DNA of 34,093 bases from Thermoleophilia bacterium (GTDB taxonomy: Bacteria; Actinomycetota; Thermoleophilia; Gaiellales; Gaiellaceae), in NCBI GenBank assembly GCA_025936995.1, contig JAICSH010000019.1:1-34093 (forward strand), written 5' to 3'. The position numbers and the translations under genes are program-made. The notes under the pieces were generated by a model. It did no database searches and was not told the origin of the DNA. It worked only from the letters and a program-made list of their open reading frames with translations. Of this stretch, positions 5,906 to 11,750 are shown piece by piece; within the stretch, counting starts at the first letter, position 1; each line of letters starts with the position of its first letter.

Positions 5906-8788
5906 ATGCCGATGCAGCGCAAGGTCGTGACCGTGGTCTTCTGCGACGTGACCGGCTCGACTGCGCTCGGCGAGTCGACCGACCCCGAGGCGCTGAGGGG
6001 GCTGCTCGCCCGCTACTTCGAGCGGATGAAGGGGATCGTCGAATCGCACGGCGGCTCGGTCGAGAAGTTCATCGGCGACGCGGTCATGGCGGTCTTCGGT
6101 GTCCCGGTCGCGCACGAGGACGACGCGCTCCGCGCCTGCCGCGCCGCAGTCGAGATGCGCGACGCCTTCCCCGAGCTCGCCATCGCCGGCCGCATCGGCG
6201 TCAACACAGGCGAGGTCGTGACGGGGACGGAGGAGCGGCTCGCGACGGGCGACGCGGTGAACGTCGCGGCGCGGCTGGAGCAGGCGGCGCAGCCCGGCCA
6301 GGTCCTGATCGGCGAGGCGACGCACGCGCTCGTGCGGGCGGCCGTGGATGTGGGCGACGAGCAACTCTTCGAGCTGAAGGGGAAGTCGGAGCCGGTTCCG
6401 GCACGCCTGCTCGTGGCGGTGACCGGAGAGCTGGAGCGGCGCTTCGCAACGCCGATGGTCGGGCGCGAGACCGAGCTGCGCCGCCTGCGCGACGCCTTCG
6501 AGCAGGCGGTGCACGACCGCTCGTGCCAGCTCTTCACGGTGCTCGGCTCGGCTGGCGTCGGGAAGTCCCGCCTCGCCACCGAGTTTCTCGCCGGTCTCGA
6601 CGCGCAGGTCGTGCGCGGCCGCTGCCTCTCCTACGGCGAGGGCATCACCTACTGGCCGGTCGTCGAGATCCTGAAGCAGCTCGGCACGCTGCCGGAGGGA
6701 GATCCTGCCCGGCCGCTGCGGTCCGTACTCGGAGAGTCGGAAGTCCCGGCGACGCCCGACGAGGTCGCGTGGGGCTTCCGCAAGCTGCTCGAGCAGGAGG
6801 CGCAGGAGCAGGCGCTCGTGTGCCTGCTCGACGACCTGCACTGGGGGGAGGAGACGCTGCTCGATCTCGTCGAGCACGTCTCCGACCTTTCGCGCGATGC
6901 GCCGATCCTGCTCCTGTGCATGGCCCGGCCGGAACTGCTGGAGCGGCGGCCCTCCTGGGGCGGTGGCAAGTGGAACGCGACGACGGTCCTGCTCGAGCCG
7001 CTCGACGCGGCCGAGACGGAGCGGCTGATCGCGGAGCTCGGCGGTGTCGGCGACGGGCTGCGGGAACGGATCCTCCAGGTCGCCGAGGGCAATCCGCTCT
7101 TCCTCGAGGAGATGCTGGCCCTCGTGCGCGACTCCGGCGGCGCGGAGGTGGAGGTGCCGCCCACGATCCAGGCGCTGCTCGCGGCCCGGCTCGACCAGCT
7201 CGATCCGGCCGAGCGCGCAGTGCTCGAGCGCGGCTCCGTCGAGGGCCGCACCTTCCATCGCGGCAGCGTCGCCGCCCTCACGGACGGGAACGGCTCCGTC
7301 GACCAACGGCTCATCGCGCTCGTCCGCAAGGAGCTCGTCCGGCCCGACCGGACGCAGCTGGTCGGAGACGACGCGTACCGCTTCCGCCATCTGCTCATCC
7401 GCGATGCCGCGTACGAGGCGCTCCCGAAGGCGACCCGCGCCGACCTCCATCGACGCTTCGCGACCTGGCTCGAGCAGCACGGGCCGGACCTGGTCGAGCT
7501 GGACGAGATTCTCGGCTACCACCTCGAGCAGGCCGCCCGCTATCTCCAGGAGCTCGGCCAGGAGGACCGCGAACTCGCGTTGGCTGCAGGCGAGCGCCTC
7601 GCGGTCGCCGGCGTTCGCGCCCACTCGCGCGGCGATCCACGGGCGGCAGGGGCGCTCCTCGAGCGTTCCCTCACGCTCACTCGTCCCTACCGCCTCGACA
7701 TCCATCTCGAGTTGAAGCTCGGCGATGCACTCGAGCCCGTCGACATCGCTCGCGGGCTCGCGGTCGTCAACTCTGCTACGGAGCGCGCGGAGGCCGCCGG
7801 AGATGAGGCCGGTGCGGCACTGTCACGCACCGTGGCCGGGAATCTGCGGCTGCAGACCGGGGACTGCTCCGCGGACGAGCTCGAGCGCCTGGCGCGGACC
7901 GCGCTGCCGTTGCTCGAGGCGCTTGGGGACGACGACGGGCTCGTCCATGTCTGGCTGGCGCTCGGCTGGGTGGCCAACATGCACTCGCATCAGGAGGGCT
8001 GGGCCGACGCGATCGAGCAAGCGCTGGTCCACGGCCGCCGCGCCGGGCACCACATCGGTGGCTCGTGGGCCCTCTCGGTACCGCTCGCCATGGGCCCGAA
8101 GCCGACTTCCGAGGCGCTGACGAAGCTCGATACCTTCATCGGCGAGCAGCCGCACCCCGGCGACGTCCAGTTGCGAGGCCTCTTGCTCGCGATGCTGGGC
8201 CAAATCGACGACGGGCTGGCCATCGCCGTTCCCGCAAACGAGCGACTACTCGAGCTGGGGATGGAAACGGGAGTGATCTGGCTCGGCGAGATCGCGCTGA
8301 TCAGCGGAGACCTGCCGGCCGCCGCGAAGTACCTGCGCACCGGCTGCGAGGAGCTCGAGAAACGGGGCGCCGTCAGTCAGGTGTCCACGTACGTTGCGCT
8401 GCTGGGCCGGGTCGTCTGCGCGCTCGGCCAGACCGACGAAGCCGAGCAGCTCGCCCGGAAGGGCCGGGAGCTCGGAGATCCCGACGACGTGTGGACGCAG
8501 GGCCTCTGGCGACAAGCCCAGGCTCTCGTCCACTCGGCGCGCAGGGAGCACGAAGACGCGATTCGCCTCGCCCGCGAAGCGGTCGACTGGTTCTCGCGCA
8601 CCGATTCGCTCCTGCGGCAAGGGGATGCGCAGTGCGACCTCGCCGAGGTGCTCGAGGCCGCCGGGCGCCGCGACGAAGCCGCCCGCGCCTGGCGAGAGGC
8701 GCTCGACCGCTATGAGCGGAAGCAGGTCGTCCCGCTCGCCGCCCGTGTCCGCGAACGAATTGCCGCCCTCGAGCCGGCGGCTACCTAG
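5906..8788 (+). CDS. Class III adenylyl cyclase-AAA ATPase-TPR regulator
   Basis: A 960-residue three-part signalling protein of a type frequent in actinobacteria. The N-terminal cyclase homology domain (about 1-170) keeps the two metal aspartates, D14 in VFCDVTGST and D58 in KFIGDAVMAVFG, the adenine-selecting pair K54 and D116, and the transition-state residues N119 and R123 in NVAARLE, so it should make cAMP from ATP. A STAND/AAA_16 ATPase follows, with Walker A GSAGVGKS at 214-221 and Walker B CLLDDLHW from 306. The second half (about 550-960) is alpha-helical, with TPR-like repeats such as LARKGRELGDPDD. No DNA-binding domain, membrane span or signal peptide is apparent. The ATG has a -10-like box six bases upstream. 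The stop TAG shares a CTAG with the stop of the convergent zur-like gene. The signal sensed is unknown. Confidence 0.93.
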   Translation: MPMQRKVVTVVFCDVTGSTALGESTDPEALRGLLARYFERMKGIVESHGGSVEKFIGDAVMAVFGVPVAHEDDALRACRAAVEMRDAFPELAIAGRIGVNTGEVVTGTEERLATGDAVNVAARLEQAAQPGQVLIGEATHALVRAAVDVGDEQLFELKGKSEPVPARLLVAVTGELERRFATPMVGRETELRRLRDAFEQAVHDRSCQLFTVLGSAGVGKSRLATEFLAGLDAQVVRGRCLSYGEGITYWPVVEILKQLGTLPEGDPARPLRSVLGESEVPATPDEVAWGFRKLLEQEAQEQALVCLLDDLHWGEETLLDLVEHVSDLSRDAPILLLCMARPELLERRPSWGGGKWNATTVLLEPLDAAETERLIAELGGVGDGLRERILQVAEGNPLFLEEMLALVRDSGGAEVEVPPTIQALLAARLDQLDPAERAVLERGSVEGRTFHRGSVAALTDGNGSVDQRLIALVRKELVRPDRTQLVGDDAYRFRHLLIRDAAYEALPKATRADLHRRFATWLEQHGPDLVELDEILGYHLEQAARYLQELGQEDRELALAAGERLAVAGVRAHSRGDPRAAGALLERSLTLTRPYRLDIHLELKLGDALEPVDIARGLAVVNSATERAEAAGDEAGAALSRTVAGNLRLQTGDCSADELERLARTALPLLEALGDDDGLVHVWLALGWVANMHSHQEGWADAIEQALVHGRRAGHHIGGSWALSVPLAMGPKPTSEALTKLDTFIGEQPHPGDVQLRGLLLAMLGQIDDGLAIAVPANERLLELGMETGVIWLGEIALISGDLPAAAKYLRTGCEELEKRGAVSQVSTYVALLGRVVCALGQTDEAEQLARKGRELGDPDDVWTQGLWRQAQALVHSARREHEDAIRLAREAVDWFSRTDSLLRQGDAQCDLAEVLEAAGRRDEAARAWREALDRYERKQVVPLAARVRERIAALEPAAT

Positions 8789-9207
8789 CGGCAGCCGGCG
8801 CAGAGGCCGACGATCTCGACCCGATGCTCGGTCGCGACGAAGTCGTGCTGCTTGGCGGCCGCGGCCACCCAGTCGTCCAGCCCGCACTCCTGGATCTCGA
8901 CGACCCGATGGCACTTCTCACAGAGGAGATGGTGGTGGTGCTCGTCCCCGCAGAGCCGGTAGCACTGCTCACCGCCGTGGTGTGACAGGACGTCCACGAC
9001 GCCCTTCTCGCTGAGGAGCGCGAGCGTCCGGTAGACGGTGGCGAGACCCGCGGCCGAGTCGCGCTCGCGTAGCCGGCTCCAGAGCTGCTGTGCCGTCACG
9101 TCGTCGCGCTCCCGCGCGAGCTCCTCGAGCACCTCGAGCCGGCGCGCCGTCGCCCGGACGCCGTTCCGCTCGAGCAGCTCCGAGATGTCCAGCCCGGTCG
9201 CAGTCAC
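8785..9207 (-). CDS. zur: Fur-family metalloregulator, probably Zur
   Basis: A 140-residue Fur-family repressor. An N-terminal winged helix contains LATVYRTLALLSEKG (from 55). The dimerisation/metal part has CEKC (C96, C99) and CAGC (C136, C139), the two pairs forming the structural zinc site, and a histidine run HHHH at 90-93 in the usual metal-sensing region. Divergence from a zinc-type ABC transporter makes Zur (zinc) far more likely than iron Fur. The start is set at GTG 9207 because a -10-like TAGGAT ends seven bases before it; a GTG two codons upstream (9213) would lie between that box and the predicted transcript start and would give 142 residues. The stop overlaps the cyclase stop in a shared CTAG. 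Confidence 0.88.
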   Translation of the reverse strand: MTATGLDISELLERNGVRATARRLEVLEELARERDDVTAQQLWSRLRERDSAAGLATVYRTLALLSEKGVVDVLSHHGGEQCYRLCGDEHHHHLLCEKCHRVVEIQECGLDDWVAAAAKQHDFVATEHRVEIVGLCAGCR

Positions 9208-9213
9208 GTCCAC

Positions 9214-9220
9214 TATCCTA
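9214..9220. promoter_or_regulatory. Shared divergent -10 element between zur and znuA
   Basis: The heptamer TATCCTA reads TATCCT on the plus strand, seven bases before znuA ATG 9227, and TAGGAT on the minus strand, seven bases before zur GTG 9207. The arrangement is symmetrical and both starts lack a Shine-Dalgarno, so two leaderless transcripts from one bidirectional element are likely. No clear -35 was seen on either side. Confidence 0.6.
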
Positions 9221-9226
9221 GCCGAG

Positions 9227-10099
9227 ATGGTAATGAGAACCGTTATCGTTCTCGTCGTGATCACCCTCACGGGCTGCGGCAGCACCTCGACGAACGGGCC
9301 CCTGAGCGTCGTCGCCGCCGAGAACGTCTACGGGAACATCGCCGCCCAGATCGGCGTCCCCCACGTCTCGGTCACCTCCATCCTGACGGGGCCGAGCGCC
9401 GACCCCCACCTCTTCGAGCCGGGCACGGCGGACGAGCTCGCGGTCGCCCAGGGGAAAGTCGTGGTCCAGAACGGGCTCGGCTACGACGCCTTCATGAAGA
9501 AGCTCGAGGACGCCTCGCCGAGCGGGAGCCGCGTCGTCGTCACGGTCGCGGACGTGCTCGGCATCGACGGCGCCGACGCGAATCCACACCTCTGGTACGA
9601 CGCGCCGCAGCTCGGTCGCATCGCCGGCGCGATCGCCGCGGCGCTCGAGCGCGCCGACCGCCGGCACGCCGCCGCCTACCGCGCCGGTCTCGCCCGCTTC
9701 GACCGCTCGCTCGCGCCGCTGCGCCGAGCGGTCGCGACGATCCGCTCCCGCTACGCGGGTGTTCCGGTCGCGTACACGGAGCCCGTTCCCGGCTATCTCG
9801 TCGCCGCCGCCGGGCTGCGCAACCTCGCGCCGGACTCGTTCACGCGGCCGATCGAGGAGGGGACCGAGCCGTCGCCGTCGGCCGTCGCCGCGATGAGCGA
9901 GCTCGTCGCACACCACCGGATCCGTGCGCTCCTCTACAACGCCCAGGCCCCGTCCCCCATCACCGCGCGACTGCGGGCCGCGGCGCGGAGCGCCGGCATC
10001 CCCCTCGTCCCGGTGCGCGAGACCCTGCCCGCCGGTCGGACCTTCCAGCAGTGGCAGCTCGACCAGGCGCGCGCGCTCGCGGCCGCCCTCGCGAGATGA
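9227..10099 (+). CDS. znuA: Zinc-type ABC transporter substrate-binding lipoprotein (ZnuA-like)
   Basis: Cluster A-I metal-binding protein of 290 residues, anchored outside the membrane as a lipoprotein. Signal peptide MVMRTVIVLVVITLTGC ends in the lipobox LTGC with the lipidated Cys17. Metal ligands by position: H61 in DPHLFEP, H121 in NPHLWYD and E185 in AYTEPVPGY, where zinc proteins more often have His. At the fourth position, usually Asp/Glu, the sequence reads LLYNAQAPSP (N238). There is no long His-rich loop. Zinc is favoured over manganese because of the Zur-like neighbour and the His-rich tail of the ATPase, but the ligand set alone leaves this open. ATG 9227 fits the -10 spacing; ATG 9233 is an alternative. 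The stop overlaps the ATPase start by four bases. Confidence 0.88.
   Translation: MVMRTVIVLVVITLTGCGSTSTNGPLSVVAAENVYGNIAAQIGVPHVSVTSILTGPSADPHLFEPGTADELAVAQGKVVVQNGLGYDAFMKKLEDASPSGSRVVVTVADVLGIDGADANPHLWYDAPQLGRIAGAIAAALERADRRHAAAYRAGLARFDRSLAPLRRAVATIRSRYAGVPVAYTEPVPGYLVAAAGLRNLAPDSFTRPIEEGTEPSPSAVAAMSELVAHHRIRALLYNAQAPSPITARLRAAARSAGIPLVPVRETLPAGRTFQQWQLDQARALAAALAR
9232..9250 (+). promoter_or_regulatory. Probable Zur operator over the znuA start
   Basis: An imperfect palindrome AATGAGAACcGTTATCGTT centred on C9241; seven of nine arm positions pair. It resembles the AT-rich palindromes bound by Fur-family repressors and stands out from the GC-rich surroundings. It covers codons 3-8 of znuA, just downstream of the predicted leaderless transcription start, a position suited to blocking transcription when zinc is bound. 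The match to any lineage-specific Zur consensus was not tested. Confidence 0.55.
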
Positions 10100-10896
10100 G
10101 CGTCGTCACCGTCGACGACCTCGCGCTGCGATTCGGGGAGCGCACGCTCTTCGAAGGGCTCGGCTTCGAGCTCGAGCGCGGTGAGCTCCTCTCCGTCCTC
10201 GGGCCAAACGGAACGGGGAAGACGTCTCTGATCCGGGTCCTGCTCGGGCTCCTCCAGCCGAGCGCAGGCCGCGTCGTCGTGGAGGGCTGCCCGCCACGTG
10301 AGCGCTGCCACCGGATCGGCTACGTGCCGCAGCAGCGGATCTTCGACCGTGACGTCGTCCTGCGCGGGCGCGACCTCGTCCGGTTCGGGCTCGACGGCCA
10401 CCGCTGGGGATTCGCGCGGCTCGACGGCGAGGCGACTGCGCAGGTGGATGCCGCGCTCGCCGAGGTCGGGGCATCCGCGTACGCGGATGCCCCGGTCGGG
10501 CGCCTCTCCGGCGGCGAGCAGCAGCGGCTGCGGATGGCGCAGGCGCTCGTCGCCGACCCGGTGCTGATCCTCGCCGATGAGCCGCTGCTCTCCCTCGACC
10601 TCGCACAACAGCGCGCCGTGGTCGACCTCCTCGACGCGCGCCGGCGACGCGCCGGAACGCCGGTCGTCTTCGTCACGCACGACATCAACCCCGTCCTCCA
10701 CACCGTCGACCGCGTGCTCTACCTCGCGCCCGGCTCGTGGGCCATCGGCACTCCGGACGAGGTGCTCACGTCGGACACGCTGTCGCGGCTTTACGACACG
10801 GACGTCGACGTGCTCCGCGTGCGCGACCGGGTCGTCGTCGTCGGGACGCCGGACGACCAGCACGTGCACCACGTGGGCGAGGAGCACGTCCACTGA
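10096..10896 (+). CDS. znuC: Zinc-type ABC transporter ATPase (ZnuC-like)
   Basis: ATP-binding subunit of 266 residues for metal import. Seen: Walker A GPNGTGKT at 36-43, Q-loop GYVPQQ, signature LSGGEQQ at 137-143, Walker B LILADE at 157-162 and the switch histidine H195 in VTHD. The C-terminal tail DDQHVHHVGEEHVH is rich in histidine, a common trait of zinc transporter ATPases that may bind or sense zinc. The ATG start overlaps the znuA stop (ATGA), and the stop overlaps the permease ATG by one base (TGATG), so the three genes form one coupled operon. A perfect 28-base palindrome lies in the codons for residues 124-133, just before the signature motif; the protein length there is normal. 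Confidence 0.93.
   Translation: MSVVTVDDLALRFGERTLFEGLGFELERGELLSVLGPNGTGKTSLIRVLLGLLQPSAGRVVVEGCPPRERCHRIGYVPQQRIFDRDVVLRGRDLVRFGLDGHRWGFARLDGEATAQVDAALAEVGASAYADAPVGRLSGGEQQRLRMAQALVADPVLILADEPLLSLDLAQQRAVVDLLDARRRRAGTPVVFVTHDINPVLHTVDRVLYLAPGSWAIGTPDEVLTSDTLSRLYDTDVDVLRVRDRVVVVGTPDDQHVHHVGEEHVH
10467..10494. repeat. Perfect 28-bp palindrome inside znuC
   Basis: The sequence from C10467 to G10494 equals its own reverse complement with no spacer; each arm reads CGGGGCATCCGCGT outward to the centre between 10480 and 10481. It encodes parts of VGASAYADAP without disturbing the reading frame. A role in RNA structure, protein binding or element insertion cannot be decided from one copy. Confidence 0.8.
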
Positions 10897-11750
10897 TGTT
10901 CGGGCAGCTGCTCGCCCAGCACTTCGTCCACACAGCGCTCTGGGCGGGCGCCGTCGTGGCGATCGTCTCGGGCGCGATCGGCGTCTTCGTCGTCTCCCGC
11001 GGGATGAGCTTCGCCGTGCACGCCATCTCGGAGCTCGGGTTCACCGGCGCCGCGGGCGCGCTCGTCGTCGGCATCGACCCGGTGCTCGGGATCCTCGGCG
11101 GCTCGCTCCTCGTCGGCCTCGTGCTAGGGCTCCTCTCACTGCGCGGGCGCGAGCGGGACAGCGCGATCGGAGCCGTCCTCGCGTTCGGGCTCGGCGTCGG
11201 CGTCCTTTTCCTCTCGCTCTACCAGGGCTACGCGACCGAGGCGACGAACCTGCTCTTCGGCAGCATCGTCGGCGTCTCCGACGGGCAGCTCCGCGACCTC
11301 GTGATCGTCGGCGGGATCGTCCTCGTCGGGCTCGCCGTGCTCTACCGGCCGCTCTTCTTCTCGAGCGTCGACCCGGAGATCGCGGCCGCGCGCGGCGTGC
11401 CGCTGCGCGCTCTCTCGGTGGCGATCTTCCTCCTGCTCGGCCTGACGACGGCGGAGGCGATCCAGGTCGTCGGCGTCCTGCTCGTCCTGACGCTCGTGAT
11501 CACGCCGGCGGCCGCCGCGCAACGGTTGACGGCTCGCCCGGGGCTCGCGCTCGTGCTCAGCGTGGCCATCGCGCTCGGCTCGACCGAAGGCGGGATTTTG
11601 CTCTCACTCGAGAAGTCGTGGCCGACGAGCTTCTTCATCACGACGCTCTCGTTCGCCGCCTATGTCGCCGCGCGGATCTACGACTGGAGTCGCGGACGTC
11701 AGAAGCGCCTGAGCTCGAGCCCGCCGCGGCGTCTGTGGGCCGTGAGATAG
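10896..11750 (+). CDS. znuB: Zinc-type ABC transporter permease (ZnuB-like)
   Basis: Membrane subunit of 284 residues in the ABC-3 family, with about eight hydrophobic segments. Seen: the N-terminal ALWAGAVVAIVSGAIGVFVVSRG, the cytoplasmic coupling region DPEIAAARGVPLRAL that contacts the ATPase, and the conserved later span VVGVLLVLTLVITPAAAAQ. The ATG overlaps the ATPase stop by one base. The final 52 bases overlap the convergent cupin gene; they encode a basic tail after the last span (SRGRQKRLSSSPPRRLW), so the overlap is harmless to the fold. Regulation is presumably by the Zur-like repressor through the operator at znuA. Confidence 0.92.
   Translation: MFGQLLAQHFVHTALWAGAVVAIVSGAIGVFVVSRGMSFAVHAISELGFTGAAGALVVGIDPVLGILGGSLLVGLVLGLLSLRGRERDSAIGAVLAFGLGVGVLFLSLYQGYATEATNLLFGSIVGVSDGQLRDLVIVGGIVLVGLAVLYRPLFFSSVDPEIAAARGVPLRALSVAIFLLLGLTTAEAIQVVGVLLVLTLVITPAAAAQRLTARPGLALVLSVAIALGSTEGGILLSLEKSWPTSFFITTLSFAAYVAARIYDWSRGRQKRLSSSPPRRLWAVR

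Follow-up and report, generated by a model that had tools for sequence, protein, structure and literature searches.

A putative symmetric leaderless promoter shared by zur and znuA, with a predicted Zur operator inside the znuA codons, in the Gaiellaceae

How can two divergent genes be both started and controlled from a spacer of only 19 bases? This question is raised by a zinc locus of an uncultured Thermoleophilia bacterium of the Gaiellaceae, located in a window of 34,093 nucleotides, which is the whole stretch of DNA that was analysed and one entire contig of a 1.85 Mb, 70%-complete assembly with 72% GC. Here zur, on the minus strand, diverges from znuA-znuC-znuB on the plus strand, and the start codons of zur and znuA are 20 bp apart. 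The genes were identified by Pfam (Table 1), and the translation of znuA opens with the signal peptide MVMRTVIVLVVITLTGC. At the far end of zur, a large plus-strand gene (5906-8788), encoding a guanylate/adenylate cyclase domain, an AAA_16 ATPase and a TPR-like region, ends 4 bases within the zur end. Our overall reading, to which we assign a probability of roughly 80%, is that a single bidirectional core promoter would serve both genes, that both mRNAs would be leaderless, and that zinc-bound Zur on an operator inside znuA would repress znuACB and probably zur as well. The elements, their conservation, spacing and reading frame, and the protein family are taken from the sequence, and from these we infer the transcript starts, the zinc-dependent binding and the repression of both genes.

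Table 1. Genes and predicted regulatory elements of the zur-znuA region, in window positions.
Feature	Position	Strand	Description
zur, Fur family, 140 aa	8785..9207	-	PF01475, E=4e-29; GTG start 9207, predicted leaderless, 7 nt from TAGGAT
Symmetric -10, TATCCTA (putative)	9214..9220	both	TATCCT (+, 9214-9219, znuA) overlaps TAGGAT (-, 9220-9215, zur) by 5 bases
znuA-type zinc-binding lipoprotein, 290 aa	9227..10099	+	PF01297, E=4.5e-42; ATG start 9227, predicted leaderless
Extended predicted operator, 6-6-1-6-6	9229..9253	+	Hexamers GGTAAT-GAGAAC-C-GTTATC-GTTCTC, read from the sequence by eye
Core predicted Zur box, 6-1-6	9235..9247	+	GAGAACCGTTATC; +9 to +21 of znuA, about -28 to -40 of zur
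znuC ATPase	10096..10896	+	PF00005; start overlaps the znuA stop (ATGA)
znuB permease	10896..11750	+	PF00950; probable ATG 10896, from translation, overlapping the znuC stop

The first part of the answer lies in TATCCTA, which the first-pass annotation had proposed as a mirror-symmetric -10 on both strands, each exactly seven bases from its start codon. This spacing was confirmed in the sequence: on the plus strand TATCCT is followed by the seven nucleotides AGCCGAG and the ATG of znuA (9227-9229), and on the minus strand TAGGAT is followed by AGTGGAC and the GTG of zur (9207-9205). The proposed mirror symmetry holds for the TA...TA ends, which make TANNNT readable both ways, but not for the word as a whole (TATCCT vs TAGGAT). 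Overlapping -10s on both strands with flanking predicted starts, as expected of a bidirectional promoter, are present.

A sample of about 691 kb of the same genome, in which 598 genes were called by a simple codon model, places these distances in context. TANNNT peaks 6-10 nt before start codons, at 82 of 436 ATG candidates and 84 of 689 GTG candidates, while elsewhere the counts are flat and mostly 0-5 per position; the control codons CTG, GCG and GAG at the same places in the 691 kb gave no TANNNT peak. With a TANNNT at 5-11 nt before the start, 169 of the 598 genes (about 28%) follow this pattern. Because of this genome-wide peak, zur and znuA, whose -10s likewise stand within the 6-10 nt or so before the start codon that mark a leaderless gene, both look leaderless. 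In the other leaderless promoters sampled here, TANNNT is followed by C in 55% of cases and by A in only 13%. A -35 element was considered and discarded, the base composition upstream of 164 leaderless -10s being flat, with no consensus.

Comparison with relatives bears on whether the element is used in both directions. Within the family, 24 orthologous regions were compared (zur 53-93% identical), and in 23 of them TANNNTA separates zur from the gene that diverges from it, with middles that read TCC, TGC, TTC, GGA, CAA, GCT, AGA, CCC, TCG, GGG, CGA or GAG; among these 24 loci, the full 7-mer is absent from one orthologue (L013). From the -10 to the zur start, most orthologues have 6-10 nt and the nine members of the genus all have 7 nt, with ATG and GTG exchanged among them; the distance to the start of the other gene is 6-9 nt. 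Conserved ends, combined with changing middles and start codons, are what would be expected if TANNNTA is used two ways. Alternative starts at GTG 9213 for zur and ATG 9233 for znuA were rejected, as they are unconserved in the orthologues, where an ATG or GTG at the 9227 position is conserved. A shared -10 in one genome could of course be a coincidence, in which case TATCCTA would be a chance AT-rich word, with transcripts starting elsewhere and both genes leadered. However, the spacing is fixed on both strands in 23 of 24 loci while the flanks change, and the peak at 6-10 nt is the rule of this genome, which leaves this explanation very unlikely. As such, conservation in relatives and the genome-wide peak lend support to leaderless starts and one shared -10 as predicted at first. 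Sharing is not universal in the family, since distant clades have separate -10s and a second box for zur; in L179-L187 (genera g11, g12 and g13), znuA and the Fur-family gene have separate -10s, and a second box-like sequence lies over the zur-side -10. In the same order but outside the family, L033 and L034 have neither the shared -10 nor the in-gene box.

Nor does zur-znuA appear to be alone in its own genome. Among 91 sampled divergent pairs, 26 have leaderless-type starts on both sides, and nine share overlapping -10s, six with a full TANNNTA. TANNNTA with a mirrored start occurs in 12 of 62 close divergent leaderless genes vs 1 of 70 codirectional ones (Fisher p = 0.003 at the pair level, p = 0.0006 per gene), and symmetric promoters of predicted leaderless genes are a recurring type in this genome. 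Eight more divergent pairs with overlapping leaderless -10s were recorded besides zur-znuA, for example at L131:4593-4609, L134:6815-6834, L149:2943-2984, L123:13985-14006 and L152:11210.

The second part of the answer concerns control. An imperfect 19-base palindrome just inside znuA, also part of the earlier annotation, was located at 9232-9250 (AATGAGAACCGTTATCGTT, centre 9241, with 7 of 9 pairs complementary), where it begins at the sixth base of the gene, and a second dyad, GAGAAC-7-GTTCTC, extends over 9235-9253. The stretch 9231-9251 is identical at 17 of 21 positions to the EMSA-verified Zur operator of C. glutamicum cg0042/cg0043, and it is the best site in the 691 kb, the next reaching 14 of 21. 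Judged by its sequence, the palindrome is an ordinary Zur/Fur hexamer-array box, and the four hexamers would offer room for two Zur dimers; the downstream hexamer, GTT(C/A)TC, is retained in nearly all members of the genus. The idea of a repressor operator within znuA codons that also touches zur thus gains from the comparative data, refined to a putative box of this ordinary kind. What is less ordinary is its place, at +3 to +27 of znuA and about -22 to -46 relative to zur, whereas such boxes typically, though not obligatorily, lie over the -35/-10 of the repressed gene. The expectation that the palindrome would also be found near other zinc genes of the same genome did not hold in the 70%-complete assembly, which has one copy only. 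Both the exact box and its loose form have this one occurrence in the 1.85 Mb, and a wider Zur regulon was dropped from consideration, neither the strict pattern nor up to three mismatches to the 19-mer giving a second site in this genome. Dozens of related genomes, by contrast, carry this box at the corresponding position.

The dyad might act not as a DNA operator but in the mRNA, as a hairpin in the leaderless 5' end. The first 50 nt do fold over the dyad, at -13.6 kcal/mol, but this stability is little above that of shuffled sequences (z -0.1 to -1.1), and an RNA hairpin at the znuA start was rejected for that reason. The 6-1-6 core with its single centre base moreover suits a protein dimer and not a stable stem-loop, and besides its association with Fur-family genes the box matches a Zur operator proven on DNA. 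Together these points render the hairpin barely plausible and argue for a DNA operator.

So what protein would bind there? By its Fur fold and its nearness to known Zur proteins, the product of the divergent gene is a Zur-like regulator: its closest solved structures are M. tuberculosis FurB/Zur (2o03, E=5e-43) and S. coelicolor Zur (3mwm, E=3e-39), which rank above Fur/PerR. C96, C99, C136, C139, D72, C86, H90-H93, E104 and H128 are invariant in 24 orthologues; with the residue correspondence taken from alignment to the solved relatives, these are presumably the structural Cys4 site and the regulatory D/C/H ligands. Fur-family specificity is hard to read from sequence, and all NCBIfam equivalogs fall below their cut-off (59.8 of 167 bits for the E. 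coli Zur model, which Fur models outscore, while no actinobacterial Zur model matched), so that a regulator sensing another metal, such as Fe or Mn, must be weighed. We consider this unlikely, as the best structural relatives are actinobacterial Zur proteins, and the partner is a PF01297/ABC-3 system that is swapped in relatives for a ZIP zinc transporter.

The box, in the form GAGAAYNRTTMTC, recurs at the zur locus in relatives. The pattern GAGAAYSRTTMTC was found at 60 places in 103 family genomes, vs 4 for the reversed control, and 45 of the 60 are within about 110 bp of a Fur-family gene. Measured from the start codon's first base, the offset of the box is +8 at the majority of family loci, with a few at +5 or +2; all three offsets keep the same frame, across about 13 genera and in some cases with a regulator only about 35% identical. 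In this frame it reads AGA-AYC-RTT-MTC, or R-[IT]-[IV]-[IL], the start of a lipoprotein signal peptide (AGA ACC GTT ATC, R T V I, in the window), while the remaining frames give E-N-H-S or, after T, a stop. The chance of finding a single frame is about 1e-6, assuming independent genera and equally likely frames; for 14 genera it was computed as 2e-7, and the lower count was used because one genus is without the -10. Lying in translated sequence, the operator would be kept in the frame that reads Arg and hydrophobic residues, and it would double as signal-peptide codons. The comparison with relatives shows, for this putative zur/znuA layout, that it has been kept by selection.

Across 399 genomes of the class, RTG-N5-box gave 59 matches vs 1 for the control. 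We nevertheless rejected the in-gene box as a class-wide trait and call the layout family-specific, since 16 of the 17 matches read outside the family do not show it; L240 is the one possible exception, encoding a predicted leaderless znuA that has the box at +8. In other outside-family matches beside znuA, the box precedes a -10 and the ATG is there by accident; some matches do not adjoin zinc genes. Box-like sequences also stand in frame at +2 of leaderless genes in L201, L202 and L168, which are not obviously zinc genes (MRTVLVAAALLL..., MRIVLVDPLAY...), and these may be chance N-terminal codons or further targets. A leaderless 66-codon ORF (MRIILMVDVHNLSSDW...) is found behind the operator in L019/L207 (G054), in place of znuA or ZIP.

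The gene behind the promoter is not always znuA. In four genomes of the genus (G093-G096; loci L007, L006, L004 and L003) a ZIP transporter (PF02535) replaces it, and the two are mutually exclusive in the genus, ZIP genomes having no znuA match and znuA carriers no ZIP match. Promoter, operator and first nine codons are nearly unchanged at the ZIP loci (MVMRTVIVL in both G000 and L004). There they open a predicted leaderless mini-ORF of 13-15 codons, the TGA of which overlaps the ZIP start (GTGA, ATGA, TTGA and GTGA). Mini-ORF and ZIP are arranged alike in L016, from another genus (ATGA), and in L209, where the regulator is more distant (GTGA). In L018 an 8-codon mini-ORF precedes a different gene, whose short visible translation resembles, by eye only, a metal-ABC permease. 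On the zur tree, in which many forks are weakly supported, at least two znuA/ZIP changes are needed. Frame and overlap of the mini-ORF are kept while its tail residues differ, which provides an independent line of evidence for ribosomes starting at the predicted 5' codon; the kept frame and the NTGA coupling are best explained in this way, and the mini-ORF looks like what is left of the znuA start. We lean towards a broader interpretation, in which promoter, operator and first 8-16 codons would form one heritable 'start module', the operator being dual-coded as signal-peptide residues in a fixed frame. After the exchange of znuA for ZIP, at least twice by parsimony, this module would persist as a leaderless mini-ORF, from which ribosomes would pass to the new importer through the NTGA overlap.

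Taken as a mechanism, TANNNTA would be usable by a sigma-70-type RNA polymerase in either orientation, and both transcripts would begin no more than one base from the start codon, yielding two leaderless mRNAs. Zinc-loaded Zur would bind the hexamer array at +3 to +27 of znuA, with the core at +9 to +21. As the operator would be within the polymerase footprint for znuA, at its downstream edge, and would also cover -22 to -46 upstream of zur, one repressor complex would shut off znuACB and probably zur. When zinc is scarce, Zur would leave and both zur and znuACB would be made. It is possible, though we doubt it, that only znuA is under the operator's control, through a roadblock downstream or a block to escape, and that zur is constitutive from the shared -10, with no autoregulation: the box is 28-40 bp upstream of the zur start, and with leaderless promoters of this genome lacking a -35 consensus, its occupancy need not stop zur. 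Yet the site is still inside the usual polymerase footprint, which spans about -40 to +20, and clades with separate promoters have a second box-like half over the zur -10, which suggests zur autoregulation in the family. Both points favour repression of the two genes by one complex.

Within about 45 bp, the locus would fit two leaderless genes, their 7-bp core promoter and an operator that is itself also coding, with a promoter symmetry that is conserved while the surrounding bases changed. It would be a natural example of a repressor obliged to bind within the first translated codons, and if the start-module interpretation is true, repression would act from inside translated sequence by general rule. 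The exchange between ZIP and znuA lends itself to asking whether an operator limits the choice of N-terminal codons, and how a gene start that stays behind turns into a leaderless mini-ORF.

None of the ingredients is novel in itself, as Zur regulation, leaderless genes and symmetric promoters are all established; what looks new is that they are combined, that the coding register is fixed and that the mini-ORF is retained. The open-access papers searched described neither the conserved combination nor a translated operator that persists through gene exchange. The nearest known case is C. glutamicum cg0042/cg0043 (znuB2/znuC2), divergent Zur-controlled zinc-transport genes that are 29 bp apart and have one Zur motif for both (PMC2823685). 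The cg0042 start was mapped by RACE to the A of the ATG, that of cg0043 is predicted according to the figure legend, and a Zn-dependent gel shift of the operator has been published (PMC2823685). Both loci have divergent genes, starts at the start codon (predicted here), a short spacer and one Zur motif. However, in C. glutamicum the motif lies across the core promoters and zur is found at another locus, whereas here the pair is zur/znuA, one symmetric -10 would serve both, and the operator would lie downstream within znuA codons. Actinobacterial Zur boxes are 21 bp long, arranged 10-1-10 (PMC2823685), and the known ones often overlap the -35 or -10 (PMC6103462). Like the M. tuberculosis FurB and S. 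coelicolor Zur regulons, this locus has a zinc-responsive Fur-family repressor (predicted here) and a 21-bp box, but a box past the predicted start site, in coding sequence. Bidirectional promoters of E. coli and other prokaryotes use a pseudo-symmetric -10 both ways, with a preferred start-site distance of 18 bp (PMC12825309). The present locus resembles them in its one pseudo-symmetric -10, with start codons 20 bp apart, and differs in that it would drive two leaderless coding genes from an element conserved across genera at a repressor locus. More than 20% of genes in Actinobacteria are leaderless, with TANNNT upstream of the start (PMC3160421), and zur and znuA have the same -10 consensus and spacing. 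Finally, leaderless small ORFs with RTGA coupling are known from mycobacteria (PMC4633059) and share their architecture with the mini-ORF coupling in the ZIP relatives, where, unlike in mycobacteria, the mini-ORF carries a predicted repressor operator.
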